Origin: a virus
Length of the DNA stretch: 31,520 bases
Virus record (IMG/VR): IMGVR_UViG_3300020478_001455
Span: 1 to 31,520 of that record
Direction: 5' to 3' (one strand)
The notes beneath the pieces were generated by a model. The model searched no databases. It was not told the origin of the DNA and saw nothing but the letters and a program-made list of their open reading frames with translations. The translations under genes were made by a program, and so were the position numbers. Positions 202-29,901 of the stretch are shown here, one piece after another; positions within the stretch are counted from its first letter, which is position 1, and each line of letters begins with the position of its first letter.

Positions 202-867
202 ATGAAGTACGGATACTACACAGACAGGGAACTACCCGAAGGTAATTATAGATGTCCTAGTTGGGATCCAATGCCTGCAGGCAAAAAGAATGTAGTAGTA
301 CTAGGCTGTTCACACACATGGGGAGTAGGCTCTGCTGATAATGAGCATTGGGTACATTTCCTTTCACAACACAACACAACAAGATTACGTTATTGGAACT
401 TAGGACAACCGGGTGCAAGTGCTGATAAAATTGTTCGTATCTTATACGGAACACAAAAATTGCTTGACCCAAAAATTATAATTGTATGTTGGCCCACAAC
501 AAGTCGTAGAGAAAACCTTGATGCTTATCCAAAAAGTTTAACAAGCGACGATGAAAAATTAAAACTAGAAAACGAACACACAGATAAAAATAATTTTCTT
601 AAGAATGTTTTCTTTGTTGAAAAATTTGCTGAGAATGTAAACGCCAAAGTGTTTCATTGTTTTGCAGAAGAACCACAAGAGTTAAATGCTCCAAATGTAT
701 TAGAACATTATAGTCTTAAAAATTGTTGGCCTTATTGGGATAGTAGAACGCAACGACAATTAATAGACAAGCCTAATTTAGCAAGTGATGGAATTCATTA
801 CGGAGTAGAGCATCACAAAAGATTTGCTTCGTTGTTTTTAGAAAGATTTGGCTCAAAATTAAAATAA
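202..867 (+). CDS. SGNH/GDSL-like hydrolase
   Basis: The 221-residue protein opens, after a short leader, with a beta strand and the GCSHT block (residues 35-39), where S37 would be the SGNH nucleophile. A glycine block GQPGAS follows at 68-73, and DGIH near 196-199 supplies the Asp-His pair expected near the C terminus. SGNH hydrolases are serine esterases or lipases; many act on acyl groups of polysaccharides. No signal peptide or membrane segment is visible, so it should be cytoplasmic. The substrate is unknown; an acyl esterase or acyltransferase partner for the surface-modification genes nearby is an inference. The start ATG has no Shine-Dalgarno sequence but has a TAAGTA box ending 6 nt before it. 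The 3' end overlaps the convergent radical SAM gene by 55 nt. Confidence 0.7.
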   Translation: MKYGYYTDRELPEGNYRCPSWDPMPAGKKNVVVLGCSHTWGVGSADNEHWVHFLSQHNTTRLRYWNLGQPGASADKIVRILYGTQKLLDPKIIIVCWPTTSRRENLDAYPKSLTSDDEKLKLENEHTDKNNFLKNVFFVEKFAENVNAKVFHCFAEEPQELNAPNVLEHYSLKNCWPYWDSRTQRQLIDKPNLASDGIHYGVEHHKRFASLFLERFGSKLK

Positions 868-1871
868 TCGTTTACATTTATCTTACGTAAGTAATCTTGT
901 TTTTTAATATACAAATCTAGCTTTTCTGAATTGTCTTCGGCAGTTGCAATTCTTTCTGCTATATCTCTACATAGTTGATAAGTCGATTTGCTTAATTTTT
1001 CTTTTGCTTGAATTGTAAATCTGTTTTTATATTTTACATCTAACACTGTTGGAGAAGTAAGATATGCCCAATCATGATCAATGTTAACTTCCGTAGCATA
1101 GTCTAATATATTTGGCATATTTGCAACGTTAAGGCAACTAACAGTAGTCCAGAAGTTTAGTTTTAGCAAAGGAAATTGTTTCTGCAATTTTTTATATGCT
1201 TGAACACTTTTAATATATTTTTTCCATTTAATTGGCCAACGTACATAGTCATGAACATCTTCTACACCATCAAAACTTAATGTTACTATAACCATTCTTC
1301 TGTTTCTTAATATGTTTTCTAACTCTGTAATCATACGTGAACCGTTAGTGTTCATTCTAACAATTTTAGTATTAGGTGGAAGGTTCGCTAATATTTTTTT
1401 ATAGTTTTTACTTGCTGTTGGTTCGCCACCATTAACATCTACTTCTAAAATTCTATTTTGAGGTAATTGCCAAAACTTTTCAAGGTTGTTTATACGTGAA
1501 TAGTTTTTTGATTCGAGACTTCCTATCTTAGTACTCAGTCCAGCATTACAAGTTTGACAAGCACTATTGCAAACATTATCTAATACACCTCCTACTACTA
1601 GGTAATCATCTTTTAATGGGTGTAATATTTTATGTCGTTCAATACTTTTAGTTCTAATACTTTCTCCATTTACCTTTTCTGTTTGCATACATCTTACACA
1701 TTCGTTAGGCCAAATGTCAAATTTCATATCAGTTTTAACTCGTTCTAACCATTCGCTGTTTTCTAATTCTGCAAATGAGTTAAATCCTTTATCAGTGGTC
1801 ATATGTCCACATTTACCTATGGATCCGTTTTGATTTAATCTAACAAAATGGTTTAATCTAGGGCAATACAT
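813..1871 (-). CDS. radical SAM protein with N-terminal twitch-like cysteine domain
   Basis: The 352-residue protein has the radical SAM cluster motif C101-x3-C105-x2-C108 and a GGEP-type SAM-binding segment (NGGEPTA). It should bind a 4Fe-4S cluster and cleave S-adenosylmethionine to a 5'-deoxyadenosyl radical. Ahead of the core sit C3, C21, C58 and C61, spaced C-x17-C-x36-C-x2-C, which looks like a twitch/SPASM-type auxiliary cluster site placed at the N terminus instead of the usual C terminus. The ATG at 1871 is supported by AAGGA about 9 nt upstream. The start overlaps the end of the sulfotransferase-like gene upstream by 19 nt, so the two are probably co-transcribed. The substrate is unknown; peptide or sugar modification are both possible. 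Confidence 0.88.
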   Translation of the reverse strand: MYCPRLNHFVRLNQNGSIGKCGHMTTDKGFNSFAELENSEWLERVKTDMKFDIWPNECVRCMQTEKVNGESIRTKSIERHKILHPLKDDYLVVGGVLDNVCNSACQTCNAGLSTKIGSLESKNYSRINNLEKFWQLPQNRILEVDVNGGEPTASKNYKKILANLPPNTKIVRMNTNGSRMITELENILRNRRMVIVTLSFDGVEDVHDYVRWPIKWKKYIKSVQAYKKLQKQFPLLKLNFWTTVSCLNVANMPNILDYATEVNIDHDWAYLTSPTVLDVKYKNRFTIQAKEKLSKSTYQLCRDIAERIATAEDNSEKLDLYIKKQDYLRKINVNDYFNFEPNLSKNNEANLL

Positions 1872-2374
1872 TTTCGCGAGTCCTTTATAACATCTTCAAG
1901 ATTAACTGTGCTATTAAGATAATTGTTCATAATGTATAAGTCAACACCAATATGATCTTCTAATACTCTTACTAGTTTTTTGCCATATGGACTTTTGTCT
2001 TTTCTATTATGTGGGATAGCACTCATCGGCAATAACTTTACATCTTTTTTATAATATTTACTAAGATGTAATAACCAGTACCATTGTGGTGCCCAGTGTC
2101 TATTTGTTAAGCCTTCTTGTTCAATTTTATCTACAACGTCTTCAGGTTTAAGTTTATGCATTTGAGCATACTTGTTTACTCCACTAACAAATCTTGATAC
2201 AGGATGTCGCAAATAAATGTTAATCATGTCAACGTCATTTATTTGTTCATTAAATTTACTTTCTTTTTTTGCTCTTCTAAAACCATTCCAACCATTTTTA
2301 AATATTGGATATATCCAATCTTTATCTATACGAATGATTTCGCAATCAGTTGTTATTAAATTATTCCAGTCCAT
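1853..2374 (-). CDS. sulfotransferase-like protein
   Basis: The 173-residue protein has two segments typical of PAPS-dependent sulfotransferases: a 5'-phosphosulfate-binding-like PIFKNGWNGF near residues 23-32, and a 3'-phosphate-binding-like LRHPVSRFVSG near residues 55-65. Sulfotransferases move sulfate from PAPS to hydroxyl or amino groups of glycans and small molecules. It is short for the family, so it is a minimal or divergent member. It overlaps both neighbours (14 nt upstream, 19 nt downstream), both radical SAM genes, which points to one operon. There is no clear ribosome binding site at the ATG, so translational coupling is likely. The acceptor is unknown. Confidence 0.68.
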   Translation of the reverse strand: MDWNNLITTDCEIIRIDKDWIYPIFKNGWNGFRRAKKESKFNEQINDVDMINIYLRHPVSRFVSGVNKYAQMHKLKPEDVVDKIEQEGLTNRHWAPQWYWLLHLSKYYKKDVKLLPMSAIPHNRKDKSPYGKKLVRVLEDHIGVDLYIMNNYLNSTVNLEDVIKDSRKCIALD

Positions 2375-3530
2375 GTAAATCTAGTTCTTTAAATAGATCT
2401 GTAAAAATTAAACGTCCATTTAAATTTCTTCGTTGATCCATTCTACCAAGGTTGTAGTAAAATCCTTTTAAGTTTTTTTGCCACGGTGTTGTAGTATAAT
2501 ACTGTATTAAATTTTCATAACTATTTTTTAGATAGCCCATAGGGTTTTCGTTTATTCTTGATTTTAAATCTTCAACTATATCGTCAATCATTGGTTGTGG
2601 TAGATTTAAAATGTTTAAATGTCTCGGAGTATATAGAGGTCCTATAATAAAACTATTATCATTAAAGTTTAATGTTTTTAAATGATTTACGCAGTCATGG
2701 ATACTTTTGTAATTAAGAATTAAATGTAACATATTAAAACTTATTTTGTGATCTAATTTAGAAATTACTTTTAAATTTTTAGAAAAATCTTCCCATACAC
2801 CTAGATGTCTTATGTATTCATATTCGTTTTCTATACTTTCAACACTAATAGTCCAATGAACATTTTTAAAAGAACATAATAATTCAAATACTCCTGTTTC
2901 TGTAGTACTTAAATTAGTGTTTACTCGAACACTGCAATTTGGGTTTTTCTCTTTTAGCAAGTTTAAAAACTCTTTATTTTCTTTCATTAGCATTGGTTCA
3001 CCACCAGCTAGATAAACGTTTTCTAGTTCTGAGATGTTTTCAAATACAAAATCTTTTACTTCTTGTCTTGCTTCTTTATTTGATTTAATTTTTTCATTCA
3101 TTTCTTGTGCCCACTTGCTACTGTATTCAGGACCACAATAAACACAGGCTTGGTTGCAAGAATTAGTCCAACGTAAGTCAACGTGCTTTAGTGTAAAATT
3201 TTTAACGTCATCGTATAACTTTAAATCAGTTTTTGAACCAACTTCTTTTAAGTAATATAGTCTACTACTAATACTACTCAAGTCTGATCTATTTTTTTCT
3301 TGTAAGTAACAACCTTCACAATTTTGTGGTTTCATATCTTGCAACATCATTTGTTTAAGATTAATATTTTTATCTCCTTGCATTATATTTTTGATGTTTG
3401 TATGATTAATGTTACCAAGTTTGTGTTTTGAAATAATACAATTCTTTACTTCCCCACTAGGCTCAAGTTCAAAACCTGTCCACGGTAATGTACAAATACT
3501 TTTATTTTTTAAGAAACTTTTAGCATCCAC
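2361..3530 (-). CDS. radical SAM protein with N-terminal twitch-like cysteine domain
   Basis: This 389-residue protein repeats the plan of the gene two positions downstream. C13, C31, C71 and C74 (C-x17-C-x39-C-x2-C) come first, then the radical SAM motif C125-x3-C129-x2-C132 and an AGGEP segment. The near-identical N-terminal spacing in the two proteins suggests paralogues or at least the same permuted family. The start is GTG at 3530, sharing the G of the preceding TAG stop; AGGA lies about 10 nt upstream. The only nearby ATG is out of frame. The reaction is unknown. The auxiliary cluster in such enzymes often binds the substrate or takes up electrons, which fits a peptide or a small polar substrate. 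Confidence 0.87.
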   Translation of the reverse strand: MDAKSFLKNKSICTLPWTGFELEPSGEVKNCIISKHKLGNINHTNIKNIMQGDKNINLKQMMLQDMKPQNCEGCYLQEKNRSDLSSISSRLYYLKEVGSKTDLKLYDDVKNFTLKHVDLRWTNSCNQACVYCGPEYSSKWAQEMNEKIKSNKEARQEVKDFVFENISELENVYLAGGEPMLMKENKEFLNLLKEKNPNCSVRVNTNLSTTETGVFELLCSFKNVHWTISVESIENEYEYIRHLGVWEDFSKNLKVISKLDHKISFNMLHLILNYKSIHDCVNHLKTLNFNDNSFIIGPLYTPRHLNILNLPQPMIDDIVEDLKSRINENPMGYLKNSYENLIQYYTTTPWQKNLKGFYYNLGRMDQRRNLNGRLIFTDLFKELDLHGLE

Positions 3531-4129
3531 TAGAGCGGTATCCTTTGAATTGTATGACCAATTGATAGCTCACTAACGTGAATGTTTTGATGTTGTGTAA
3601 ATGTGTCTATTACACTTTTGACCCAAACATTAACATCTGCCTTTTCTGGACGTTCCGCACAAGACTTTTTAAAAGATTTTTCTTTTTTAATATCAGATGT
3701 ATCAACAGCACCGGGTCGAATTATTGAAATCTTTGGCCAACTGCTTTTGTGTTGTAGTTGTCTTGTTGCTTCTTCTAATGCAAGTTTTTGTGTACGATAT
3801 TCACTCATAGTAATGTCATCGTGATCGTCTGGTATACTGTTAATTGGTTCTTGTGCCATCTTTGAACTAATATTCCATATGTAATGGCGACCAGCCAAAG
3901 TATACCAACGTTTCCAAACTGCATATAATAATTCTGTTTGTGCGTAATAAGATTGTGCGTTGTTAATAAACAAAGTACACGGATCAATTATGTTTGCTGT
4001 ATGTTCAATTCTTCTAATATTTTCACCATCACTTCTTGATATGCCAATAATTTCATGTCCTCTATCTGCTAATTGTTGAGCAAATGCTTTACCAATTCCG
4101 TGTTTGTGACCTGTAATCGCGATTTTCAT
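3530..4129 (-). CDS. short-chain dehydrogenase/reductase (SDR)
   Basis: The 199-residue protein has the NAD(P)-binding TGHKHGIG (residues 6-13), the NNA block at 56-58, a serine at 88-89, and the catalytic Y111-x3-K115. IRPGAVDT (137-144) is the usual segment after the active site. It should catalyse NAD(P)-linked oxidation or reduction of an alcohol or ketone. At 199 residues it is shorter than the usual 250, mostly from a reduced C-terminal substrate region. It is the first gene of the minus-strand run 813-4129, and its stop is fused to the start of the radical SAM gene. A TTTAAATA box on this strand ends 16 nt before the ATG, and GGAA sits about 8 nt before it. Confidence 0.85.
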   Translation of the reverse strand: MKIAITGHKHGIGKAFAQQLADRGHEIIGISRSDGENIRRIEHTANIIDPCTLFINNAQSYYAQTELLYAVWKRWYTLAGRHYIWNISSKMAQEPINSIPDDHDDITMSEYRTQKLALEEATRQLQHKSSWPKISIIRPGAVDTSDIKKEKSFKKSCAERPEKADVNVWVKSVIDTFTQHQNIHVSELSIGHTIQRIPL

Positions 4130-4143
4130 TTGTTGTTCCGTTT

Positions 4144-4155
4144 GTATTTAAATAC
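4144..4155. promoter_or_regulatory. palindromic bidirectional late-promoter-like box
   Basis: GTATTTAAATAC is a perfect 12-bp palindrome in the 31-nt gap between the divergent genes starting at 4129 (minus) and 4161 (plus). Each strand reads TTTAAATA, close to the TAAATA core of T4-family late promoters. On the plus strand the box ends 7 nt before the ATG, which would place transcription start at or beside the start codon. The promoter role is inferred from sequence alone. Confidence 0.5.
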
Positions 4156-4160
4156 TGCGT

Positions 4161-4643
4161 ATGAAGTCATATTTTATTCTGGATTGCAAAAAGCAACAAA
4201 AAATTGCTGATAGTTTGTATGGTTATTACGTAGGATTAACTGCAAACAATACGCCTAAACAATTTTGGACACACTTAACACGTGAACAAATAAAAGATTA
4301 TTTTTCTATACCTAATTTAGAACTAGTTAAATGGTTTGATAGTTTAAACTTAAAAGTTAGAGATATGAGTTTTACTATCACTAATGAACAAATCCAAACT
4401 AGTAAACATCGAGATGAACCTCCAGTAATTGCTAAAATTAACTTTCCTGTGTTAAACACAAAGGATACCTATAACGTTTGGTTTGACGAAGATGGTAACG
4501 AAATAGACAGAGTAGAATGTACAAAACCAATTGTGTTACGTTCTGATATTTTACATACAGTAGAGATAGGAAAGGATGCCAAATTTCCTAGACTTCAGTT
4601 TAGTTTTTGTTTTTACAAAGAACCTCTTCACTTATTAACGTAG
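4161..4643 (+). CDS. 2OG-Fe(II)-oxygenase-like protein
   Basis: The 160-residue protein has an H83-x-D85 motif, a distal H132 and R144, in the order and rough spacing of the iron and 2-oxoglutarate ligands of the double-stranded beta-helix dioxygenases. Alternating beta strands around these residues fit that fold. Such enzymes hydroxylate or desaturate peptides, sugars, nucleobases or small molecules; this substrate is unknown. It is small for the family, so only the minimal fold is present. It is the only plus-strand gene between 867 and 8081. There is no ribosome binding site; the TTTAAATA box ends 7 nt before the ATG. Its 3' end overlaps the convergent gene by 16 nt. Confidence 0.6.
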   Translation: MKSYFILDCKKQQKIADSLYGYYVGLTANNTPKQFWTHLTREQIKDYFSIPNLELVKWFDSLNLKVRDMSFTITNEQIQTSKHRDEPPVIAKINFPVLNTKDTYNVWFDEDGNEIDRVECTKPIVLRSDILHTVEIGKDAKFPRLQFSFCFYKEPLHLLT

Positions 4644-5275
4644 TCAATTATATCCTGAACATTTAGGTTAGCAACATTTTCATACGCAACAACAAAACTG
4701 TTTTGTTTATTTTCTTTTGATAAAGGATCCGGTGTATTGTCCTTTAATAACATTTTTTTGTTTTCATCAGTAGGTAATACACCTTTAGCCATGCAACGTA
4801 TATCACCAAACGTTACATTTTTTATTCTAAAAACTTGAGATGTAAATTCCATAATATCCTCAACTCTTGCGTTTGAATGATACTCACGATATCTATTTTC
4901 ACACTCGCCTGCAAGTTCTAGCATATTAGTTGTTTTATATGAGTAAAAACGATCAAACAGATCTTGTCTATAACTGTCTATATCTTTAGGTGCCTCAATA
5001 CTAACAAAGTATGCGTTTGGAAAATAATTTTTTAAAGTGTCATAAAAATAATGACTAGGTACTACAATGTTATGATCTGTTGGAAGATTTAAAGAAGTTA
5101 TTTCCGGAAACCAACTGTTTAATAATTGTTTCCCAAAAAAATCATTAGTAATAATTGTTCTATTATTAACTGATTGTTTAGATAATGTTCTAAAAAATTT
5201 GTGTGTAGAAATTTTATGACTTAAGAACTCCCCTTTGCAACCATGTTGATAACAAACAAATAATGCTTTAGCCAC
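4628..5275 (-). CDS. hypothetical protein in the modification island
   Basis: I do not recognise this 215-residue protein. It starts with a hydrophobic strand (ALFVCYQHGCKGE) followed by polar alpha/beta sequence, and a second strand FVSIEAPKD sits near the middle. This recalls a Rossmann-like or sulfotransferase-like fold, but no nucleotide-binding motif is clear. The chosen start is GTG at 5275, whose codon overlaps the last codons of the upstream SGNH-like gene; GGAG lies about 8 nt upstream. A TTG 24 nt further upstream in frame has no such support. The overlap with the upstream gene suggests coupled translation and a shared pathway. Confidence 0.7.
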   Translation of the reverse strand: MAKALFVCYQHGCKGEFLSHKISTHKFFRTLSKQSVNNRTIITNDFFGKQLLNSWFPEITSLNLPTDHNIVVPSHYFYDTLKNYFPNAYFVSIEAPKDIDSYRQDLFDRFYSYKTTNMLELAGECENRYREYHSNARVEDIMEFTSQVFRIKNVTFGDIRCMAKGVLPTDENKKMLLKDNTPDPLSKENKQNSFVVAYENVANLNVQDIIDYVNK

Positions 5276-5945
5276 GAAACTTCTCCAGTTTATCTTCAAT
5301 TGGTAACTTAAGAAATTCTTTATTAAATTTACGTGCTAGGTAAATCATAAAATGTTTATTTGGTACAGTGTTTTTTTCTCCTAATGAATGGTCGTGTAGT
5401 TTCCAATATTCGCCTTGTGTATAATCTTCCCATATTTGCCAATTGTGATTAGTGTCAATTTTGTCAGCCCAATTTTTATGAGTCCAGTTAATTTTATATC
5501 CAAGTACTGTGTGTAATTTTATATTTTTTTCGTCACAAAGTTTTTTTAAAAGCATCCATTTGTAAACGATATCACTTTGTTCCATTGCTGGACTGTATAG
5601 GTATTTGTAATATAATTTTTTGCTTTCGTGTTCTTCACTTACACTACTAGGCCAATACCCATCACAAGTAAAATTTCTAATTGTGTCATTTTCAACAAGA
5701 GCTTTTCTTTCGTCATTTATTAATTCTACATCAAGTTTTTTTATGCTTGTTAGTTGACATATTGCTTGTGAATAATTGTTATCCATAACAGATTCAAGCA
5801 TTTTGTTTAAAATTAATTGATTGCTAATTGCCGGACCCGCACGGTCTTCTATGTCAACACCGCACAATTTAAGTACGTTAACCCACGTTGGTCTTTCTTG
5901 ACTTGACCAAGACATTCCACAACCACTAATCAATATTTTTGACAT
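5268..5945 (-). CDS. SGNH-like protein
   Basis: The 225-residue protein begins with a hydrophobic strand leading to GCGMSW, a position matching the nucleophile block of SGNH hydrolases, and a glycine-rich segment follows near residues 38-45. Near the C terminus a stretch with D, H, P and N precedes a helix, as around the Asp-His pair of the other SGNH genes here, but the standard D-x-x-H is not clean. Activity is therefore uncertain. The ATG at 5945 is preferred because AGGA lies 8 nt upstream; an ATG two codons earlier sits too close to it. The start overlaps the upstream radical SAM gene by 20 nt. Confidence 0.6.
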   Translation of the reverse strand: MSKILISGCGMSWSSQERPTWVNVLKLCGVDIEDRAGPAISNQLILNKMLESVMDNNYSQAICQLTSIKKLDVELINDERKALVENDTIRNFTCDGYWPSSVSEEHESKKLYYKYLYSPAMEQSDIVYKWMLLKKLCDEKNIKLHTVLGYKINWTHKNWADKIDTNHNWQIWEDYTQGEYWKLHDHSLGEKNTVPNKHFMIYLARKFNKEFLKLPIEDKLEKFRG

Positions 5946-6747
5946 GAACATTTTCCTTTTTATAATGATCGACTGAATGACTTAATTGTTCAGGACACAT
6001 TGAGCATATGCTTTCTGGTTTATTAATTTGTTTAACTAATCCTTGTACATCTCCATCTGCGTCAACTCCTTTGTAATCATATAGATTGTGTTTCCCCATA
6101 TCAAGTATGTTGGCAATTGGTGCACACTTAAACAATTTATTTTTGTAAAGAATTGGTGTGTCTGGACTCCCACAAATGCTGTGTGCTTTTTTTGGATTGC
6201 TTTTAAATGGAGTAATTTCTCCATTAATTAATTTATAAGGTATAACAAATCTTTTAAATTTGCTTTTGTATATTGTAACGTCATCATGATGTAATTCTAA
6301 TTGTCTATGTCCATCAACTGTGCTTCGTGTTGCTGTCCAACCGTTACGTAGTTTTACAATACGTTTAATTTCTTTTGTAATCATAGGCTCGTGGTCTTGC
6401 CTATGTATACTAACTTGCATTTCCAACGAACCAAACCCAAACCACATCTCAGGATTATATCTACGTAACAAATATCCATTAGTAATAAATCTTATAACTG
6501 CTTCAGGCCATGCTTTTCTAATTGCTTCTAATACTTTTTGTATTCGTGGGTGCATTAATGGTTCACCACCAAATATAGATATTACTGATGGATCAAGTAT
6601 TTTACTCCAAGTATCGCATTGTTCCTGTATATCTTTTAAAGATTCAACTCCTCTACGATCAAAATCGCTTAAACTTATACAGCCTTTACAAGCCAAATTA
6701 CAAGCATAAGCAACATTAAAGTCTAATCTTTTTATTCTATATTTCAT
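5926..6747 (-). CDS. radical SAM protein with C-terminal twitch-like domain
   Basis: The 273-residue protein has C16-x3-C20-x2-C23 close to its N terminus and FGGEP at 59-63. After the barrel come C192, C208, C248 and C251 (C-x15-C-x39-C-x2-C), the normal C-terminal position for a twitch-like auxiliary cluster. It therefore differs in domain order from the radical SAM proteins at 813-1871, 2361-3530 and 6744-7766, although the auxiliary cysteine spacing is alike. The gene overlaps the next radical SAM gene by 4 nt (ATGA type), so the two products may act in sequence or together. The substrate is unknown. Confidence 0.88.
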   Translation of the reverse strand: MKYRIKRLDFNVAYACNLACKGCISLSDFDRRGVESLKDIQEQCDTWSKILDPSVISIFGGEPLMHPRIQKVLEAIRKAWPEAVIRFITNGYLLRRYNPEMWFGFGSLEMQVSIHRQDHEPMITKEIKRIVKLRNGWTATRSTVDGHRQLELHHDDVTIYKSKFKRFVIPYKLINGEITPFKSNPKKAHSICGSPDTPILYKNKLFKCAPIANILDMGKHNLYDYKGVDADGDVQGLVKQINKPESICSMCPEQLSHSVDHYKKENVHVKNID

Positions 6748-7766
6748 TCTAGTGTAGCATACTCCACAAAGTTGTCAGTTGTTTTTATTCGTGCAAACTC
6801 TTCTTGAAACTGTTTATGTTCAGGATGTGCAGGTGCAACAACGTCGTGCCAATTAAAATCTGAAAATGTTTGCCAGTCTGTAATTCTATTAAGCCAAACT
6901 CTATCAGCACCATATTGTTTTCCTAACTCGATTATATCTTCCATCTCATGGTAATTTCCTTTTTGTACTACAAAGTGTAGTATAAATCTAAAATTGTGTT
7001 TCTTTTTTAATTGGGATATACATTCTAAGTTTTCGTTTACTTTGTCCCACTTACCGCCTAATCTTAGTTTTTCGTATGTTTCTTTTGATGCTCCATCAAT
7101 ACTAACTCCTAGTTCTTCCATGTTATTAATAACGTAAGGTACTCGTGTGTGAAACTCTTTAAACATAAGTGCGTTTGTTAATATACTGTATTTGATATTA
7201 TTACGTTCAGGTGTTTGTTCCATGAAGTGTCTATACACGTGCGAAGCAAATGGATCACCATCTGAACCTATATGAACTTGTAAAGGAAATTTGTAATCAT
7301 ATAACCATTCATTAATGCTATCAGCAAGTTTGATTCCTAAATTATATGCAGAACCTTCTTTATGAAAAATTAATCCTGTACGACAACTTGGACATCTTAA
7401 GTTACAAGAATCGTCTATTGCTAATCGCAAATGTTTAATTTTTCTTTCAGGTGTTTGTGTTTTCCATGGTGGAGGATTCTTTTTATCTAGCAACCATGCA
7501 CATTGTTTATTATTACAATAACGATATGTGTTATCAGTTATAGAAGATTGTAAATGCTCTGCCATTTTTGATTGTAGTATTTCTGATAGTGTTTGTATTT
7601 GTAAGTTACCTATACTTTGTGGCAACCACGATTGACATTCACAAGCATAACAACTGCCTTGTTTGTCTATTAGTACAGTATCAAACGGTCGTGGACATCG
7701 CGTTTTGATTTGCAAGTTCTTATTAGTATCGATATCGTAGTGTTCAAATAATCGCTTGTTAATCAT
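6744..7766 (-). CDS. radical SAM protein with N-terminal cysteine domain
   Basis: The 340-residue protein has an N-terminal cysteine cluster (C24, C39, C42, C44, C84, C89), then the radical SAM motif C121-x3-C125-x2-C128. A GSDGDP segment stands in place of GGEP, as in some SPASM-family enzymes, and a later SIDGASKETYE block matches the conserved strand and helix found in SPASM radical SAM proteins. It should generate a 5'-deoxyadenosyl radical for modification of an unknown substrate. It overlaps the small basic ORF upstream by 8 nt and the next radical SAM gene by 4 nt, so it is the first large gene of the minus-strand run 4628-7938. Confidence 0.88.
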   Translation of the reverse strand: MINKRLFEHYDIDTNKNLQIKTRCPRPFDTVLIDKQGSCYACECQSWLPQSIGNLQIQTLSEILQSKMAEHLQSSITDNTYRYCNNKQCAWLLDKKNPPPWKTQTPERKIKHLRLAIDDSCNLRCPSCRTGLIFHKEGSAYNLGIKLADSINEWLYDYKFPLQVHIGSDGDPFASHVYRHFMEQTPERNNIKYSILTNALMFKEFHTRVPYVINNMEELGVSIDGASKETYEKLRLGGKWDKVNENLECISQLKKKHNFRFILHFVVQKGNYHEMEDIIELGKQYGADRVWLNRITDWQTFSDFNWHDVVAPAHPEHKQFQEEFARIKTTDNFVEYATLE

Positions 7767-7938
7767 TCTTATTTGGGTTCGTTAAGTCGTCAAGAGTAAT
7801 CGGCTTGTCCAACGGAACCGTATAGCCTGTTGTTTTAGCAACAACACGTTTTTTACGATTGCGTCTTTCTTCTCTTTTCTGTTGTTTACGCAGATTCTTT
7901 TCCGCCCTAGTACTTTTATAATCGTAGTGTATTCCCAT
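7759..7938 (-). CDS. small basic protein heading the radical SAM operon
   Basis: A 59-residue ORF starts MGIHYDYKST at 7938 and has a lysine/arginine-rich middle (about residues 10-33), followed by a more neutral tail with prolines and threonines. I do not recognise a family. An in-frame upstream extension to 7983 would add 15 hydrophobic residues, but the TGTAAATA box lies inside it and ends 8 nt before the 7938 ATG, so the shorter form is favoured. Its last codons overlap the start of the radical SAM gene. It could be a nucleic-acid-binding accessory protein. A precursor peptide for the radical SAM enzymes is possible but unsupported by any leader motif. Confidence 0.6.
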   Translation of the reverse strand: MGIHYDYKSTRAEKNLRKQQKREERRNRKKRVVAKTTGYTVPLDKPITLDDLTNPNKND

Positions 7939-7945
7939 AGTGCAG

Positions 7946-7953
7946 TATTTACA
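7946..7953 (-). promoter_or_regulatory. late-promoter-like TGTAAATA box
   Basis: TGTAAATA on the minus strand ends 8 nt before the ATG at 7938. If it works like a T4-family late promoter, the transcript would begin within about 2 nt of the start codon. No Shine-Dalgarno sequence is present in the gap. Confidence 0.45.
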
Positions 7954-8007
7954 AACCAAAAATACCACACAAAACTTTTTCATTTACATATTTAGGTTGC
8001 ATTTTAC

Positions 8008-8586: not shown

Positions 8587-9600
8587 ATGGAATCAAAGAA
8601 AGTATTGTTAGAGTATGTTTGGTTAGACGGATATAAACCTGAACCAACATTAAGATCAAAAATTAAAATCATCGACAGATATTGTAGTCACGTTGCTGAA
8701 GTTCCTACTTGGGGATTTGATGGTTCAAGTACGCAACAAGCACAAGGGTCAAATTCAGACTGCATATTAAAACCTGTACGTTTATACGACAGTCCATTTG
8801 AAACAGATCAAATAGTTTTGTGTGAAGTGTTTAATGCAGACGGAACGCCACATATTTCAAATACAAGAAACAAAATTGAAAGCATTAATCAAAAAGAATA
8901 TTGGTTTGGCTTTGAGCAAGAATATACATTAATGAAAAACGATCGTCCGCTTGAATGGCCGGAAGATGTTACTATGTATCCAAAAGAGCAAGGCGATTAT
9001 TATTGCGGTGTTGGTGCTTCTAACATTGGTTCATTAGGTAGAAAGATAATGCACGAACACACTAAAAATTGTTTAACTGCAGGAGTATCAATACACGGAA
9101 CCAACGCAGAAGTTATGTTAGGACAATGGGAGTATCAGGTGTTTGGTAGAGGAGCAAAGAAAGCCGCGGATAATGCCTGGATGGCACGTTACATACTTTA
9201 CAGAACAGCAGAAAAGCATAACGTTGATGTTAACATAGAACCTAAACCAATTAAAGGTGATTGGAACGGAAACGGTATGCATACAAATTTCTCAAACGAA
9301 ATGATGAGATCAGTAGGTGGCGAAGTATACATTAAAAGTTTATGTGATAAGTTCAAACCTACACACGAACAACATATTGCCGACTACGGTAGTAAAAATG
9401 ATGAACGTTTAACAGGGCTACACGAAACACAACACATTGGTAAGTTTAGTTACGGTATCAGTGATAGAGGAGCAAGTATTAGAATTCCTATGGCGTTAGT
9501 TCAAAATAATTGGAAAGGTTATTTAGAAGATAGACGTCCGTCCGGTAATGCTGATCCTTATAAAGTTACAAACAGAATATTAATAACGTTAGAGAGTTAA
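8587..9600 (+). CDS. glnII: type II (GSII) glutamine synthetase
   Basis: The 337-residue protein matches the eukaryote-like GSII family, not the 470-residue GSI usual in bacteria. It has FDGSST (44-49), FGFEQEYTL (107-115, metal-binding glutamates E110 and E112), GTNAEVM (171-177), GQWEYQ (179-184), GNGMHTN (228-234), RLTG (274-277) and RGASIRIP (294-301). ATP-, glutamate- and ammonia-site residues all appear present, so it should make glutamine. GSII is not controlled by adenylylation, so the phage enzyme would escape that host control. It is monocistronic with its own promoter. Its product is the amide donor for the AsnB encoded at 23715-25478. No truncation or frameshift is seen. Confidence 0.95.
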   Translation: MESKKVLLEYVWLDGYKPEPTLRSKIKIIDRYCSHVAEVPTWGFDGSSTQQAQGSNSDCILKPVRLYDSPFETDQIVLCEVFNADGTPHISNTRNKIESINQKEYWFGFEQEYTLMKNDRPLEWPEDVTMYPKEQGDYYCGVGASNIGSLGRKIMHEHTKNCLTAGVSIHGTNAEVMLGQWEYQVFGRGAKKAADNAWMARYILYRTAEKHNVDVNIEPKPIKGDWNGNGMHTNFSNEMMRSVGGEVYIKSLCDKFKPTHEQHIADYGSKNDERLTGLHETQHIGKFSYGISDRGASIRIPMALVQNNWKGYLEDRRPSGNADPYKVTNRILITLES

Positions 9601-10241: not shown

Positions 10242-11668
10242 TACTGTTCTTCGTCTGAGTGTAGTTCGTTTAGTAATTGTCTTAGTTTGCCACCTTCAAC
10301 TGTTGCTTTAATCTTGCCAACCTCATCTCCTTTAGTTGGATCTGGTACTCTTGGTTGTGCATCAGTTTTGTCCTTGCTCACTTTAGATTTTTGTTTTAAT
10401 GAATCATATATTGGACTTTTAGTTTTACCTTGATAATTTTCTTCCTCTTCTAAATCTCTAATTCTTAAACTGTCAACATCAAATTCTAAATCAACTTTTT
10501 GCCCAACACCGCTTGAACTTCTCGTTTTCATAAACTGAATTTGATACCTACCACGTTCTTTCATTGCTCTACTTGTAAAGATACCTATTACGTTGTCTGC
10601 TGTTTGTACTTTGGATAATCCGCCCGCTATGTGAGAATGGTCAAATTCAATCTCTTCAACACTTGCTCTGTTCAACTGTGATGCTGTTGCTAATAAACAT
10701 TGTTTCTCAACTGCTAAATTTCTTAGTTCTTCCGAAACATATTTGTCTTTAATAAACAAATCGCTTGGAGATATTCTTTTTGATTTTGGCATCATTAGAT
10801 CCAGATAATCAATTAATACTCCGTCAAGTTTCTTTTTAGTTTTAAGTTCTAATTCTTTAATATATGTTCTAATATCTAAAACAGTACTACCACTTGGCAA
10901 ATATTTGATATACAGCAATCCAGATTTTTTAGCTAACATTTTAACTTTCATTTCAACATTATCTATTTCTGGAAATACTTTACGTGTTGGAATGTTAGTC
11001 ATCATTGCATCTAATCTCATAGCAGTAAGTTGTTCACTTAATTCAAATGAGATATATGCAACGTTCAAGCCAGCTGTTGCCCAATTCACTGCAAGATTCT
11101 GTAAGAATAAACTTTTACCTGCGCCTGATCCACCTGCAAAAATGTTTAATTCACCTCGGTTAAAACCACCGAACAGTCTCTTATCAATGTTTGGCCAACC
11201 TGTGCTGACCTGTCCGTTAGAGTTTTTCAAAAACTCTAATCTACCTTTTGGATCTTCAAAGTAGTCTGTACCTAGATCTTTTGTCAATCCTACACTTACC
11301 GCGGCCTTCACCATATCTTCTACTGGAGCATAGTCGCCCTTTTCAAGTAAGTCTGCAGATTGTAAAATTGCACTTTCTAGTGCCTTGTGTCTGGAAAACG
11401 TTTCAAATTCATCCAATAACCAATTAAAGTGACTTGGATCTAAATCTTTTGCTGATTTTAATTTAATATCGTGTTTAGCATTAACCTGTTCAACATCAGG
11501 CATAACTTTGTATTCTTCTACATAGTCTTTAATAAATTTTGCAATAGGTTGTAATTTTCTATCAAAACTTTTTGGTGTAAAAATATTTTGTGCTCTAGCA
11601 AATGATTCAGCATCAGCTAATAGCATTTCTAAATATAACTTTTGTACATCTATATTATAATCAGCCAT
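10241..11668 (-). CDS. 41: gp41-type replicative DNA helicase
   Basis: The 475-residue protein is a DnaB/gp41-family hexameric 5'-3' helicase that unwinds DNA at the fork and works with primase. It has a helical N-terminal region (1-130), the RecA-like core with Walker A GGSGAGKS (179-186), SFEL (207-210), and Walker B LIDYLDL (285-291). The later SQLNR segment is typical of DnaB helicases. Length is near that of T4 gp41. GGAG lies 6 nt before the ATG at 11668. The tail after about residue 420 is polar and low in complexity. It lies next to the primase gene as in T4, except that a radical SAM gene has been placed between them. Confidence 0.94.
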   Translation of the reverse strand: MADYNIDVQKLYLEMLLADAESFARAQNIFTPKSFDRKLQPIAKFIKDYVEEYKVMPDVEQVNAKHDIKLKSAKDLDPSHFNWLLDEFETFSRHKALESAILQSADLLEKGDYAPVEDMVKAAVSVGLTKDLGTDYFEDPKGRLEFLKNSNGQVSTGWPNIDKRLFGGFNRGELNIFAGGSGAGKSLFLQNLAVNWATAGLNVAYISFELSEQLTAMRLDAMMTNIPTRKVFPEIDNVEMKVKMLAKKSGLLYIKYLPSGSTVLDIRTYIKELELKTKKKLDGVLIDYLDLMMPKSKRISPSDLFIKDKYVSEELRNLAVEKQCLLATASQLNRASVEEIEFDHSHIAGGLSKVQTADNVIGIFTSRAMKERGRYQIQFMKTRSSSGVGQKVDLEFDVDSLRIRDLEEEENYQGKTKSPIYDSLKQKSKVSKDKTDAQPRVPDPTKGDEVGKIKATVEGGKLRQLLNELHSDEEQ

Positions 11669-12590
11669 TTAAATCTCCACAAAATATTTTACAATAATTA
11701 TTAGCAGTTTCCAACCGTTTTGTCGATTCATAAAAATTTACCACGTCTTTATCCGTTAAAATATCTTTAATTTTTTTATTTTTAATATTGTATTTTTTAT
11801 TTCTAGGGTTCCACATTGTTTTATATGCAATCAAGTAAGTTCCTATATAACAACAAGGATAAAAGTCACCAAACGCCGAAATGAATATAAAGTCTTTTAC
11901 TTTACCGTGCTTTAGACATTGAGGGCTCATTTTTTCAGGTGCTTTACCTTCCATAATCAGAGATCGTGTATTTTCCTCTGTTGATCTATATTTTTCACTT
12001 GGTATCAAATTTTTATCATAATTTGGATCAAAGCCTTTAATACTAGTAATTATTCTGAAGTTATTAATGCCTAAAGATTTTGCCATTGTTTTTGCTTCTT
12101 CAATTTGATGCTCATTGTGTTTAAAGACTATAAATTTCCATACTGATTGTACACCCGAAGCACCAACTATTTTTAAAGCTCTAAGCACTGTTGGCCATTT
12201 AGAATTTACTCTGTACAAATGATTAGTATCCTCAAGTCCATCTATACTAAATTCTATCTCATCAGTTGGTGATAAAATTTCTACAAGATTTTGCCAAAAA
12301 GATTCTCTTTTGCCACTTGCGTTAGTTGTTATTTGCACACGTATTTGCATATTTTTAATTCTTTTGACTAACTCAAGAAACTTTGAGTGGTATATAGCAT
12401 CACCAGTGTTACCTTCAAAATGAACTACTTCTGTGATACCTTCTAAAAAATTACAGAGAACATCAATGTCCATTTCTTGTATTTGTTTCACTTTTGGAAA
12501 TTGTTTTTTAAACCAAGTACGTGGACAACCCGAACAGCCAATTATACATTTATTAGTAATTTCAATATTAAATTTATATTTGTTATCCAT
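11661..12590 (-). CDS. radical SAM/SPASM-type protein inserted between helicase and primase genes
   Basis: The 309-residue protein has C15-x3-C19-x2-C22 at its N terminus, and later cysteines C225, C246, C247, C300 and C304 in the place of a SPASM or twitch domain. The usual GGEP is replaced by FEGNTGDA (58-65), which keeps the strand position. ISPTD-like and SIDGLED (115-121) strands fit the partial TIM barrel. It overlaps the primase gene by 8 nt and the helicase gene by 8 nt, so it is embedded in the replication operon. It is the only radical SAM gene outside the left island. The substrate is unknown; DNA modification is possible but nothing in the protein shows it. Confidence 0.85.
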   Translation of the reverse strand: MDNKYKFNIEITNKCIIGCSGCPRTWFKKQFPKVKQIQEMDIDVLCNFLEGITEVVHFEGNTGDAIYHSKFLELVKRIKNMQIRVQITTNASGKRESFWQNLVEILSPTDEIEFSIDGLEDTNHLYRVNSKWPTVLRALKIVGASGVQSVWKFIVFKHNEHQIEEAKTMAKSLGINNFRIITSIKGFDPNYDKNLIPSEKYRSTEENTRSLIMEGKAPEKMSPQCLKHGKVKDFIFISAFGDFYPCCYIGTYLIAYKTMWNPRNKKYNIKNKKIKDILTDKDVVNFYESTKRLETANNYCKIFCGDLNG

Positions 12591-20738: not shown

Positions 20739-21203
20739 ATGAAAAAACAAGTATTAAGTAGAAGAAAACACTTAAAAAGACAGTTCAAAAAGTCATTAGA
20801 ACTGAAACAAGATATTGCGGGTTATAAACCTACCCTTGCTGTTGCGGCATTTTGGTACAGAAAGTTAAATGGACTATTGTTTAATAATAAATTACCTGGA
20901 TGTTATATTGAAATTAAAAAATTACATTATGACTGGGGTAGATGTGTTGTTGATTGGGACAATAGAAAAACACCAAAAGGAAGATTTAATCAAAGGATAA
21001 TTCCTTATCATATTCCTACAACTTACCGTATTGAGTTACACAGCAAGTATCCAAGATGGAAAGATTTTATTGAAACTTTAGCACACGAAATGGTGCATTT
21101 ATATCAAATGCAAATTATGAAAGATCCTTATTCAAATCATAATCAAAATTTCTATTCTTTTAGAAATAAGTTTAAAGCGGTTGGTTTAAGACTTTATCGT
21201 TAA
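20739..21203 (+). CDS. SprT-like zinc metalloprotease
   Basis: The 154-residue protein has the HEMVH zinc motif (116-120) with catalytic E117, a third likely ligand at H134 in the HNQNF segment, and the FRNKF end of SprT-like domains. The front part (about 32-70) holds the conserved WYRKLN and DWGRCV-type strand. SprT/Spartan proteins cleave proteins crosslinked to or bound on DNA. Its place next to uvsW fits a role in DNA repair or in removing host DNA-bound proteins. No zinc-ribbon tail is present. The ATG lacks a ribosome binding site. The 3' end overlaps the convergent gene by 32 nt. Confidence 0.85.
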   Translation: MKKQVLSRRKHLKRQFKKSLELKQDIAGYKPTLAVAAFWYRKLNGLLFNNKLPGCYIEIKKLHYDWGRCVVDWDNRKTPKGRFNQRIIPYHIPTTYRIELHSKYPRWKDFIETLAHEMVHLYQMQIMKDPYSNHNQNFYSFRNKFKAVGLRLYR

Positions 21204-21930
21204 ATTCTTTGTAAGTCATTAAAAAACTATTTCCAACATCGTAGCCTGTTTGTAAGTTGTGCATATATTCTGGCGGGTTATCGTGTACAATAGTAAATTT
21301 ACAATAAGGTCTTTTCTTTAAATGATCTCTATACCACTTTAACCAATTATCAAATATTGTATCGTCGTTCCTAGGTCCATAGTTTTCAGTATCCTGGTAT
21401 ATATTGTTTAGTTGGTTTCTTCCATATTCTCTAAAATCAAATCCTATTAGATATATGTTTTGGTGTCCATGTACACAGGCAGTCCATATTGCTTGATTAC
21501 CGCTAATGGAATATGGATTATTTGGGATTAAATGCAGTACAGGTGGACCACCCTTAGGGTGTCGATTAACTTCAAGCGACGGAGCATAGTGAATACATTT
21601 TTCATAAACTTTTTCTTTAACCATTTCATTAGTAACTTTTAAATCAATACTAAAAATAAAGTCTGGAACAAAATCTCGATATAAAGCATTACAACCATAT
21701 GTTTGTCCTGTTGCTTTTAAAGTTTCTAAATCAAAGCCTTTACGTGAAGGTCCGTTTCCTATAATATATGCATTACCTCTTGGAACTGCTTTAACTCTAT
21801 CTTCGTAATATCCTTTTTCTAAAATTTTTTCACCTTTTCGAATAATAGTATTAACGACAATAGTTTCACCCTTATAAGGTTTCCATTCTATAGGTTCTAT
21901 TGGTCCACTGCCTCCGATTACTGTTGGCAT
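21172..21930 (-). CDS. DUF115/GT42-like Rossmann protein
   Basis: The 252-residue protein has the strand-loop IIGNGPSRKGFDL (56-68) and, further on, TYGCNALYRDF and NQAIWTACVHGH with LIGFDF. These segments are shared by DUF115/MptE-like proteins and resemble the nucleotide-sugar site of CstII-type sialyltransferases (GT42). The role may be transfer of a sugar acid from CMP, or some other nucleotide-linked transfer; I cannot decide. It is the last gene of the minus-strand glycan operon and shares TAATG with the upstream gene; AAGGAG lies 11 nt before the ATG. No membrane segment is visible. Confidence 0.65.
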   Translation of the reverse strand: MPTVIGGSGPIEPIEWKPYKGETIVVNTIIRKGEKILEKGYYEDRVKAVPRGNAYIIGNGPSRKGFDLETLKATGQTYGCNALYRDFVPDFIFSIDLKVTNEMVKEKVYEKCIHYAPSLEVNRHPKGGPPVLHLIPNNPYSISGNQAIWTACVHGHQNIYLIGFDFREYGRNQLNNIYQDTENYGPRNDDTIFDNWLKWYRDHLKKRPYCKFTIVHDNPPEYMHNLQTGYDVGNSFLMTYKEFNDKVLNQPL

Positions 21931-22799
21931 TACAAATATTTCTCCTTCAATCTATTTTTAATTCTTTCCCATGGTAAACCCTTTTCAATCTCATTTGTCC
22001 ACCATTCAGTATATGCTAACTGATTTGCCCATGTTTGTCTATCTGGCATTTCTGGATTATTAATTTTTGCAAGATCTTTATTACCAACATCATAACTTAA
22101 ACTAGCCTCTGAAACAAATACAGGCACACCATTAAACACAGATTGCATCGCTGGATTGCTAGAATAATTTACAACTGCCCATGCAGAATTAAGTCTTTGA
22201 GAAAAATCTGTATCATCATATGTTTTATTATCTCTAATTGGATATATTATTTTAACATTTTCAAAATTGTTAGTATTAATAGCAATACGGTTTCGTGGAT
22301 GTGGTCTAACTATTATTGGTCTGTTTGTGTATTTTCTAATTTGAATAATTTGTTGTTCAATCCATTTTTGCATTGGTGGATTATTACGCCATTGGTGACT
22401 ATTATGGTGTTGACCACAAATTATTATTTCATTTCCGTTTTGTCTCCATGGCTTTAATTCTATATTAAATTTTCTCCATCGATCATTATCAAAGTTTTGA
22501 TTTGCAAAGTCGGCTTCTCGATTTATACCATTTATTCCAATCTTCCAAGTTTCGTTTCTTTTAATTCCTCCAACTTCAATTACAATAACAGGCTTGTTTT
22601 GTGCTTTATATTTTTCGTATATTGAACGATACTGTGACATTCTTCCTTGCCAAAGCACACTCCAAATTACTGCAACATCACTGTTTGTATTTTTGTTTAC
22701 ATGAACTTCCTCACCAGAGTTTTGTAAACTTTTTATAAATGCTTCAAAGACTGGTTTTGAATTTAAAGGCCCATGCTTTGGCCATATTTCTATTTTCAT
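21930..22799 (-). CDS. KpsC/KpsS-like capsule glycosyltransferase, paralogue 1
   Basis: The 289-residue protein has a GT-B-like layout: an N-terminal domain, then IIVRPHPRN (162-170) and NYSSNPAMQSVFNGVPVF (211-228), followed by a conserved tail (PEMPDRQTWANQLAY, then W..NEIEKG). The RPHP and small-residue-rich helix are seen in capsule Kdo-transferase-like proteins that build poly-Kdo linkers. Three other genes (25478-26461, 26451-27266, 29074-29886) share the same tail, with PDR or DPEP and a final LAY. It overlaps the upstream gene by 4 nt. Donor and acceptor are unknown. Confidence 0.7.
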   Translation of the reverse strand: MKIEIWPKHGPLNSKPVFEAFIKSLQNSGEEVHVNKNTNSDVAVIWSVLWQGRMSQYRSIYEKYKAQNKPVIVIEVGGIKRNETWKIGINGINREADFANQNFDNDRWRKFNIELKPWRQNGNEIIICGQHHNSHQWRNNPPMQKWIEQQIIQIRKYTNRPIIVRPHPRNRIAINTNNFENVKIIYPIRDNKTYDDTDFSQRLNSAWAVVNYSSNPAMQSVFNGVPVFVSEASLSYDVGNKDLAKINNPEMPDRQTWANQLAYTEWWTNEIEKGLPWERIKNRLKEKYL

Positions 22800-23698
22800 A
22801 AACTTGGTGGAACCTTTTTCCAGTAGTCAACATTTAAAATGTCTGCAGGTGCATTTGGATTTGCTTTTAAATCGTTTTTAGCAGACGTACCGTGTTTTTT
22901 TCTTTTTCCTTTCATGTGATCCATGTAAAGTCCTAACTCACTATTAACAAATACATGATGTCCTCTAACACCTTTCCAATACCCAATGTCGTTTACTTTG
23001 ATTGCTTTTTCTGTTTGATATTTTTTAGTTAAATGCCAAAACACAAAAGAGTCGTGCCATTCTAATAACTTGAATACATTATCGGTTACATATAATTGTT
23101 CCCATTCGTTTACAAAATTTTGTACTTCGGGGTGTTTAAGATTATAGCCAACAAATCCGCATTCTGGATATTTGCCCCCATCACGTAGTTTTGGATTTTC
23201 TCTGCCTAAGTAAGTAACCATAGTATCTGTTGGTAACAATGATTCAAAAAAGTTTAATGGAACAGGTCTAAAAGTAAATGTGTCAGCATCAATCCAAACA
23301 ACATAATCATAATCTTTTGAATTACGTACACCGTTAACTACACAAAAAACTTTGTTTGCAAAACGCACAGCCGCCCAAAGATATGATCCTTTATTTTTGT
23401 CCATGCCACCTTTCTTTTGTAACTCTGCTGGACGTCTAACGCCGCCCGGTATTTCTTGCAATTCTCCATTTGCAACAGGATCGTTTTTGTGTTTATTTTT
23501 AAATTTAAAAAGTTCTGGCTCTGCAGAATTTAAATCTATCCATTGCAATCGATCATAATTGCATTTTGGTTTTGGTTCTTCTGCGTATACTACTATGTCA
23601 ATTTCTTTTGGAAATTGTTTGGCCATAGACTCAATTCCTTTACGAGAATATTGTTCCCAAGTACCTGGTTTGTATGATGTTATTACTTTAATTTTCAT
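22796..23698 (-). CDS. GT-A-type glycosyltransferase
   Basis: The 300-residue protein has VVWIDADTFTF (133-143), where D137 and D139 form a DxD metal motif of GT-A glycosyltransferases, and an opening strand VITSYKPGTWEQY. CGFVGYN further on fits the acceptor loop of GT8-like enzymes. It should transfer a sugar from a nucleotide donor. There is no membrane segment, so it works in the cytoplasm or peripherally. It follows asnB with a 16-nt gap, which holds an ATTAAATA box ending 8 nt before the ATG. No Shine-Dalgarno sequence is present. Donor and acceptor are unknown. Confidence 0.78.
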   Translation of the reverse strand: MKIKVITSYKPGTWEQYSRKGIESMAKQFPKEIDIVVYAEEPKPKCNYDRLQWIDLNSAEPELFKFKNKHKNDPVANGELQEIPGGVRRPAELQKKGGMDKNKGSYLWAAVRFANKVFCVVNGVRNSKDYDYVVWIDADTFTFRPVPLNFFESLLPTDTMVTYLGRENPKLRDGGKYPECGFVGYNLKHPEVQNFVNEWEQLYVTDNVFKLLEWHDSFVFWHLTKKYQTEKAIKVNDIGYWKGVRGHHVFVNSELGLYMDHMKGKRKKHGTSAKNDLKANPNAPADILNVDYWKKVPPSL

Positions 23699-23705
23699 TT
23701 TTTAA

Positions 23706-23713
23706 TATTTAAT
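23706..23713 (-). promoter_or_regulatory. ATTAAATA box before the GT-A gene
   Basis: ATTAAATA on the minus strand fills the short gap after the asnB stop and ends 8 nt before the ATG at 23698. It could be an internal late promoter or a non-Shine-Dalgarno initiation element. The gap is AT-only, so chance is a real alternative. Confidence 0.35.
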
Positions 23714-23714
23714 T

Positions 23715-26461: not shown

Positions 26462-27266
26462 CTAATATACTTAATGCCCACCCGTTTCTAAACTCCTCCT
26501 GAGTGAATTGTCCATATGCTAAACTGTAAAACACAGGTTCTCTATCTTTATACACTGGAGTTTCTATTTTACTAAAGTCTGATTCACAAATAGATCCACA
26601 AGGATTTTCAAAGTTACTAAAACAAGGAACTCCGTTGTGTAATGCTTTAATTGTAATTGAACTATTAAAAGTTACAACTGCATGGACTTGATCCCATTCA
26701 AATGGTCTTTCAGGTTGTTTATTTTCACTAGGTCCTGGTAGCATTCTGCCTTGTTCGTCTATAAAACTTTTTGGGTTATATGGTTTTTCTCTTACAATTA
26801 GTTCTCTATCTGTACTTGCTTTTAAAATTTTTAAAGTATCTTCCAACCAATTAGGAGCACCAAAATGTAATGCCATACTATGACTTGGTGGTACAACTAA
26901 TACATACTTTCCATTTTTATGATAAGGTTTAATTGGGTCACCTTTGTAATACTTTTTATATCTGTCATCAGGTCTGTCCTCAACAAATGTTTTAACGTGT
27001 TCATTTTTTACACATCTCATCCAATAAGGCGTACCCCTACTTTCTCCCCAATAAGGTCTATCAATATAATAAAAATCTTTTTTATTTTGTTTTGCCCAGT
27101 TGTATACAAGGTTAGTACCACGTAAAACGCCCATAAAAGTAACCTTTTCACAGTCAGTTGAATTTAATAGCTCTTGGTAAGAAACAATTTTACCACGCAT
27201 ACCTCTATTCATAGAATCAATATATTTTTGGGTATTCACTCTTTCTGTTTTTACTGCGTAATACAT
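26451..27266 (-). CDS. KpsC/KpsS-like glycosyltransferase, paralogue 3
   Basis: The 271-residue protein has VREKPYNP in place of RPHP, a GPSENKQPE segment, then VVTFNSSITIKALHNGVPCF and the shared tail (KIETPVYKDREPV, YSLAYGQFTQEEFRNG). It is closest in plan to the gene at 29074-29886, which also has REKP and GPSE. The N-terminal half holds DYIDRPYWG-like aromatic segments matching DTPYFGRF in that gene. It starts with ATG at 27266 with no ribosome binding site. The substrate is unknown; an acceptor similar to that of its paralogue is inferred. Confidence 0.68.
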   Translation of the reverse strand: MYYAVKTERVNTQKYIDSMNRGMRGKIVSYQELLNSTDCEKVTFMGVLRGTNLVYNWAKQNKKDFYYIDRPYWGESRGTPYWMRCVKNEHVKTFVEDRPDDRYKKYYKGDPIKPYHKNGKYVLVVPPSHSMALHFGAPNWLEDTLKILKASTDRELIVREKPYNPKSFIDEQGRMLPGPSENKQPERPFEWDQVHAVVTFNSSITIKALHNGVPCFSNFENPCGSICESDFSKIETPVYKDREPVFYSLAYGQFTQEEFRNGWALSILDGR

Positions 27267-27285
27267 ATTGTAATTTTAACTTGTT

Positions 27286-28368: not shown

Positions 28369-28371
28369 GGT

Positions 28372-28400: not shown

Positions 28401-28409
28401 TATTAAATT

Positions 28410-29886: not shown

Positions 29887-29901
29887 TAGAAGAAATTCTA
29901 A

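Follow-up and report, generated by a model that had tools for sequence, protein, structure and literature searches.

The 31,520-base IMG/VR record IMGVR_UViG_3300020478_001455 (the window, analysed over its whole length) carries a cassette of enzyme genes built around SULF, a compact sulfotransferase-like gene, and R1, a gene for a radical S-adenosylmethionine (rSAM) enzyme. The conserved unit is SULF-R1, usually accompanied by a short-chain dehydrogenase/reductase gene (SDR) and a second rSAM gene (R2), and sometimes by a gene for a 2-oxoglutarate (2OG) oxygenase-like protein (OG2), giving two to five enzymes. Well over 100 other viral contigs also have cassette genes side by side, which is well above chance. 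The cassette appears to be a viral chemical-tailoring pathway not described before, because searches of cultured-phage and plasmid records gave no close counterpart and those of bacterial genomes only one, phage-like, match. The interpretation that we favour, at slightly less than an even chance, is that the cassette oxidises and sulfates a single substrate, most likely a surface carbohydrate of the phage or its host. It starts from features that were computed directly, namely the genes and the intactness of their motifs, the sulfotransferase fold of SULF, its constant linkage to R1, the gene overlaps, and the occurrence of the unit at two genomic sites in permuted order.

The window is a piece of a T4-like, probably jumbo, phage; its DnaB helicase is nearest to that of PA5oct-type jumbo phages (55%). 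Its open reading frames were compared with Pfam, PHROGs and NCBIfam. Four intact rSAM genes, R1 to R4, lie within positions 813-7766 on the minus strand, and the product of each scores above the cut-off of the Pfam Radical_SAM family PF04055 and keeps the CX3CX2C motif, bearing out the four such enzymes that a sequence-only reading had placed in a modification island at 813-7938. The motif is present in 78/80 relatives of R1, 83/83 of R2 and 22/22 of R4. The cassette genes proper are R1 (813..1871, PF04055 9e-8), SULF (1853..2374), R2 (2361..3530, with a GTG start) and SDR (3530..4129), all on the minus strand, followed by OG2 (4161..4643) on the plus strand. At their starts and stops, minus-strand neighbours share 1 to 32 bases, except around OG2, and that reading had already noticed such overlaps; the stop of the 173-residue SULF overlaps the start of R1 by 19 bases.

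The search with R1 found at least 584 viral relatives among IMG/VR contigs, and those with R2 and SULF found 197 and 382, of which 80 loci each were examined. SULF, R1 and SDR stand beside R2 in nearly all of the R2-derived loci. R1 adjoins SULF in 79/80 of the SULF-seeded loci, and in the remaining one OG2 intervenes. SULF and R1 overlap in all 153 of 153 measurable gene pairs (median 14 nucleotides), and overlaps were also found for R2-SULF (23/23), R1-OG2 (21/21), R1-SDR (73/75) and SDR-R2 (109/122); in these measurements the starts were chosen by rule and some contigs are counted in more than one locus. Pairwise distances co-vary, with r of 0.81 for SDR-R2, 0.62 for R1-SULF and 0.39 for R1-UvsX. 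The comparison of gene content across relatives that the sequence-only reading had proposed thus shows SULF, R1, SDR and R2 co-occurring, overlapping and co-varying rather than scattered. The idea of a biosynthetic island holds for SULF-R1 with its optional SDR-R2 and OG2. It fails for the whole island, which is a mosaic: R4 is specific to the window's lineage, and R3 with its neighbours SGNHb and UNK is rarer still.

Chance assembly of unrelated auxiliary genes in a hypervariable phage region would fit the many rSAM genes of such viruses, as described in two papers (PMC5332604, PMC7029224), and the variation of R3, R4 and UNK among relatives. However, it is contradicted for SULF-R1 and SDR-R2, since SULF-R1 occurs at two sites in permuted order, overlaps without exception and has linked distances. 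As an account of the whole cassette it is very improbable; for R3, R4, the SGNH-like genes and UNK it is possible.

Most relatives have the order gp32-SULF-R1-(OG2)-SDR-R2-UvsX, the median gaps being 3 nucleotides between gp32 and SULF and 2 between R2 and UvsX. The cultured jumbo relatives CBB and Vibrio phage 2.275.O lack the cassette and have a single-stranded-DNA-binding gene followed directly by a UvsX-like gene; in Phosso, where the cassette is also absent, a "hypothetical protein" occupies the gp32 position. In the window's lineage the genes are permuted to R4-(OG2)-SDR-(R2)-SULF-R1 and lie downstream of DnaB. OG2, on the strand opposite to the cassette in the window, lies on the same strand in the gp32/uvsX lineage, between R1 and SDR. 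L042 and L164, both at the gp32/UvsX site, also have the order SDR-R2-SULF-R1. The R1 tree unites the DnaB-site loci in a single group (support 97/77), with one change of site. Loci with SULF-R1 only (L154, L156, L168, L181, L125 and others) are scattered in the tree, showing that SDR-R2 was gained or lost repeatedly. In four loci (L085, L100-L102) a 184-residue protein, c87, which has no Pfam family, stands in the place of SULF in the gp32-uvsX operon, followed by a distant R1-like gene.

The layout implies that the cassette would be expressed alongside the replication genes. Because of this embedding in replication operons, it was premature of the sequence-only reading to set nucleic acid aside as a substrate. 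During replication the cassette might hypermodify either the DNA of the phage or a nucleotide that serves host defence as a signal. Its arrangement with gp32, uvsX or DnaB would suit such a role, DNA-modification genes adjoin uvsX in T4, and variability among tailoring genes would be expected in an arms race. However, no gene of the thymidylate-synthase family, which includes the dCMP/dUMP hydroxymethylases, was found in three cassette-bearing records of 230, 212 and 122 kb, which is weak evidence against DNA modification because the three records may be incomplete. Also, the cassette proteins are neutral to acidic, with median pI of 5.8-7.7 (gp32 and UvsX are acidic too), and the PADLOC matches to viperin are those of a generic rSAM protein. 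A nucleic acid or nucleotide substrate appears rather improbable on balance.

SULF has no Pfam or NCBIfam match, the Pfam Sulfotransfer profile included, and its structure was therefore predicted from an alignment. The AlphaFold2 (AF2) model, made from 21 members, has a pLDDT of 91. A Foldseek search of the model against the PDB alone gave nothing significant (best E 0.24), and a profile search against PDB sequences gave nothing useful. In VIA-align, sulfotransferases fill all of the top 15 rows, with Z of 4.8-6.1 (3-O-sulfotransferases, NDST and 3rnl), and the nearest folds are those of the heparan-sulfate 3-O- and N-sulfotransferases; StaL and Teg12, which belong to glycopeptide-antibiotic pathways, other sulfotransferases and P-loop proteins reach Z of 3.4 or less. 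The best viral structural match, in BFVD, is to a phage protein bearing the name "Sulfotransferase family" (E 1e-11, TM 0.80). SULF contains FKN, assigned to the 5'-phosphosulfate-binding (5'-PSB) motif, R56-x7-S64, assigned to the 3'-PSB motif, and NRHWAPQ. Among 110 distinct SULF sequences the 3'-PSB-type pattern occurs in 108/110 and the 5'-PSB-type in 96/110. An alignment with hhalign related SULF to a PF03567-type sulfotransferase encoded at 29902-30525 of the window (E 5e-4), and a YxPQxxWL stretch is common to both. The sulfotransferase call, made on VIA-align, BFVD and the motifs, agrees with the sulfotransferase-like label given earlier in spite of the missing Pfam match. The fold is well supported, and SULF would accordingly be a candidate enzyme dependent on 3'-phosphoadenosine 5'-phosphosulfate (PAPS). 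It shares the predicted fold and the 3'-PSB R-x7-S of Sulfotransfer_2 (PF03567) and the heparan-sulfate enzymes, but differs from them in being only about 160-220 residues long, in matching no Pfam family, and in having a gene that overlaps an rSAM gene.

R1 and R2 are homologous along their full length, and in both the auxiliary twitch cluster is N-terminal. R2 belongs by score to the NCBIfam family NF033640 (N_Twi_rSAM), reaching 248.5 bits against a curated cut-off of 170, whereas R1, with the same architecture and cysteine pattern, remains below it at 134.0 bits. To our knowledge this family has no established function. The twitch cysteines C3, C21, C58 and C61 of R1 are invariant, together with CX3CX2C, across 21 relatives, as are C13, C31, C71 and C74 of R2 across 22. 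The twitch region of R2 matches the aminocyclitol dehydrogenase BtrN (E 1e-4). Viperin, suggested by PADLOC matches, was rejected as an identity for these enzymes, the scores being generic to the rSAM domain (best 37.9 bits over about 120 residues); no specific pVip family was matched, and the NCBIfam viperin score is 36.2 against a cut-off of 180.

The SDR call made from the sequence is upheld by Pfam adh_short (2.7e-7); the protein has about 180-200 residues, and its Y-x3-K is kept in 88/88 relatives. For OG2, no Pfam family was matched and a profile search against PDB sequences gave nothing useful. Its earlier description as 2OG-oxygenase-like stands on a conserved H-x-D...H...R motif only: H83, H132 and R144 are invariant and D85 nearly so across 13 relatives, and these residues would supply the HxD...H facial triad and the 2OG-binding arginine of a 2OG-Fe(II) oxygenase.

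We infer from these parts a reaction scheme, including the order of its steps, its substrate and its benefit, for a tailoring operon that the phage would keep inside its DNA-replication operons. R1, by means of its rSAM cluster and auxiliary twitch cluster, would oxidise its substrate at an unactivated C-H or C-OH; SULF would sulfate a hydroxyl of that molecule, with PAPS as the donor. Where present, SDR and R2 would act as a second pair, R2 by radical oxidation or dehydration and SDR by reduction with NAD(P)H, and OG2 might add a further hydroxylation. A carbohydrate is favoured as the substrate because the predicted SULF fold is of the glycan type, the R2 twitch region matches BtrN, AprD4/AprD3 offers a precedent, and glycan-type genes lie near the cassette both in the window and in relatives. 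AprD4 is an rSAM diol dehydratase that acts on paromamine with the NADPH-dependent reductase AprD3 (PMC5461906). The analogy would lie in an rSAM enzyme beside a reductase-type partner, SDR and R2 being genes that overlap and co-vary; AprD4/AprD3, however, comes from aminoglycoside producers and has no sulfotransferase partner.

Several points weigh against this scheme. The conserved unit contains no glycosyltransferase or nucleotide-sugar enzyme, and its minimal form is SULF-R1 only. An operon with gp32/uvsX or DnaB, and with no TATAAATA upstream of SULF, would be an odd site for virion-glycan genes; this simple late-promoter pattern was found in 0/58 cases, although these phages may use a different one. 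The activities of all cassette members are predicted. The argument from the closest fold of SULF is weak, as the Z values are about 6, the root-mean-square deviation exceeds 4 Å and the rows are tied. Lastly, the R1 profile matches the peptide maturase SkfB (1.7e-6).

The SkfB match, shared by the R2 profile, suggests a different substrate, namely a side chain of a phage or host protein that R1 and SULF would alter, for instance by oxidation and sulfation, the substrate being encoded elsewhere. Many of the weaker NCBIfam matches are likewise peptide maturases, and a small conserved reading frame, h74, precedes R4. Nevertheless the SULF fold appears closer to glycan than to glycopeptide-antibiotic sulfotransferases, and the gp32-uvsX operon, where genes overlap or have median gaps of 3 nucleotides or less, is too tight for a precursor gene. 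No gene for the precursor of a ribosomally synthesised and post-translationally modified peptide (RiPP) was found in that operon, and h74, upstream of R4, is confined to the DnaB-site lineage. A RiPP with its precursor in the operon is disfavoured because of this spacing, and protein or peptide modification in general is unlikely. Of the two products proposed from the sequence, glycan or peptide, the former is thus plausible while a peptide of the RiPP type is disfavoured.

A diffusible sulfated metabolite or cofactor, altering host metabolism with no polymeric substrate, would agree with an enzyme set that is self-contained and sits with replication genes, and with the abundance of rSAM genes in these viruses; single records of 230 kb (L078) and 212 kb (L166) have 14 and 12 rSAM matches. 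It is, however, an improbable explanation: the minimal two-enzyme form has no committed scaffold-forming step, and the cassette can therefore only decorate a pre-existing molecule.

We hold a broader proposal as a serious but minority possibility. The SULF-rSAM pair, diversified by SDR, R2 and OG2, may form a virus-specific pathway with no cellular counterpart that makes a new sulfated modification. Its target might be a surface glycan, phage DNA or a defence nucleotide, and its timing would be that of phage DNA replication.

The carriers of the cassette are uncultured giant tailed phages of seas and lakes. A tblastn search with the window's R1 was negative against 50,697 phage records (E 1e-5) and 72,556 plasmid records (E 1e-3), and a SULF relative from L046 had no match in the phage records. 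A divergent R1 relative from L095 reaches rSAM proteins of KVP40-type Vibrio phages at 21-25%, and R2 reaches Vibrio phages at 20-24%. The scan of 84,980 bacterial and archaeal genomes gave a single match, a 10 kb phage-like contig (L111) in a Porticoccaceae metagenome-assembled genome; as two short peptide patterns were used, distant cellular relatives could be missed. The R1 sequences of this contig and of viral locus L022 are nearly identical; the binning of the contig into that genome is possibly a hint of the host or an error. NF033640 is above its cut-off in 3/299 sampled genomes of the same phylum, the genome with the contig being among the three. Two cellular N_Twi_rSAM loci (L193 and L195) are weakly like R1/R2, at about 18-35% over local stretches for L193, in a comparison of less than 4.3 kb of DNA. 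L193 (G082 contig 19), from a cellular genome, has four tandem N_Twi_rSAM genes.

No description of a sulfotransferase-rSAM unit was found in the open-access literature, a coverage outside which most subscription papers and preprints fall. Two papers describe a T4-like environmental virus genome with 12 rSAM genes (PMC5332604) and rSAM cassettes that pelagimyophages carry in their host-recognition cluster (PMC7029224); the passages concerned describe no such unit in a gp32-uvsX operon. A Baltic survey terms its own inference on virus-borne "ahbD" rSAM genes speculative (PMC9301287). The auxiliary genes that phages carry tend to be single metabolic steps borrowed from the host. In this case a small enzyme pathway has stayed together in a large set of viral contigs, and its site and gene order have changed while it remained whole. 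This points to unexplored viral chemistry, for which SULF-R1 is a defined two-gene target for biochemistry, and gives a context to the many genes of aquatic viruses that are annotated just as "radical SAM".

The remaining genes of the island are accessory. R4 (6744..7766, minus strand; PF04055 5.5e-7, SPASM 1.2e-5) has an N-terminal SPASM/twitch-like domain and heads the operon in the DnaB-site lineage, where 63-91% relatives adjoin the cassette. The small basic reading frame h74 (7759..7983, minus strand) overlaps the R4 start. Its pattern MGIHYDYK...LTLDM(I/L)T(D/N)P is kept upstream of R4 in many loci, with both termini conserved, and it probably starts at the internal ATG of MGIHYDYK. Placed directly upstream of R4 in that lineage, h74 is possibly a partner or substrate of R4. 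SGNHa (202..867, plus strand), a convergent GDSL/SGNH-like gene, bounds the cassette there, and its relatives (51-68%) have the same position in most DnaB-site loci. R4, h74 and SGNHa are neighbours in this lineage only and lie outside the conserved unit. The two SGNH-like proteins counted in the island are weak calls, since SGNHa has a sub-threshold GDSL match (E 0.0013) and lies mostly outside 813-7938, and SGNHb (5268..5951, minus strand), with no Pfam family matched, has a GCGxSW-like motif only.

R3 (5926..6747, minus strand; PF04055 2.2e-9) has a C-terminal cysteine cluster, and its relatives were found in 12 loci, three of them close (52-92%). UNK (4628..5299, minus strand) has a predicted P-loop kinase/sulfotransferase-like fold with a degenerate Walker A; its AF2 model (pLDDT 82) has a best VIA Z of 8.3, to small-molecule kinases, with sulfotransferases up to 7.6. 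Its own scan of viral contigs found nothing, and the few known relatives (L112, L138, L141, L008) came from other scans. R3-UNK would resemble a second pair of the SULF-R1 type only in a shared P-loop-like fold, because the SULF and UNK profiles are unrelated (hhalign probability 0.2). Among the loci examined, relatives of SGNHb occur only in L008 and L112, and the set R3-SGNHb-UNK is complete beside the cassette only in L112; L008 has all three with no close SULF or R2.

A fifth rSAM gene, R5 (11661-12590, minus strand), which the sequence-only reading missed, lies between the primase and DnaB helicase genes and overlaps both; with it, all five rSAM proteins of the window exceed the PF04055 cut-off. 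In many relatives the primase-DnaB slot has no R5 match. Positions 21172-31520 hold a long glycan-type cluster with an AsnB-type amidotransferase, GT61, an FkbM methyltransferase, the PF03567 sulfotransferase, an NDP-sugar epimerase and several glycosyltransferase-like proteins. A glutamine synthetase homologue at 8587-9600 on the plus strand has Gln-synt_N and Gln-synt_C above the Pfam cut-off, and an 81% relative of it is present in L117 and L118.

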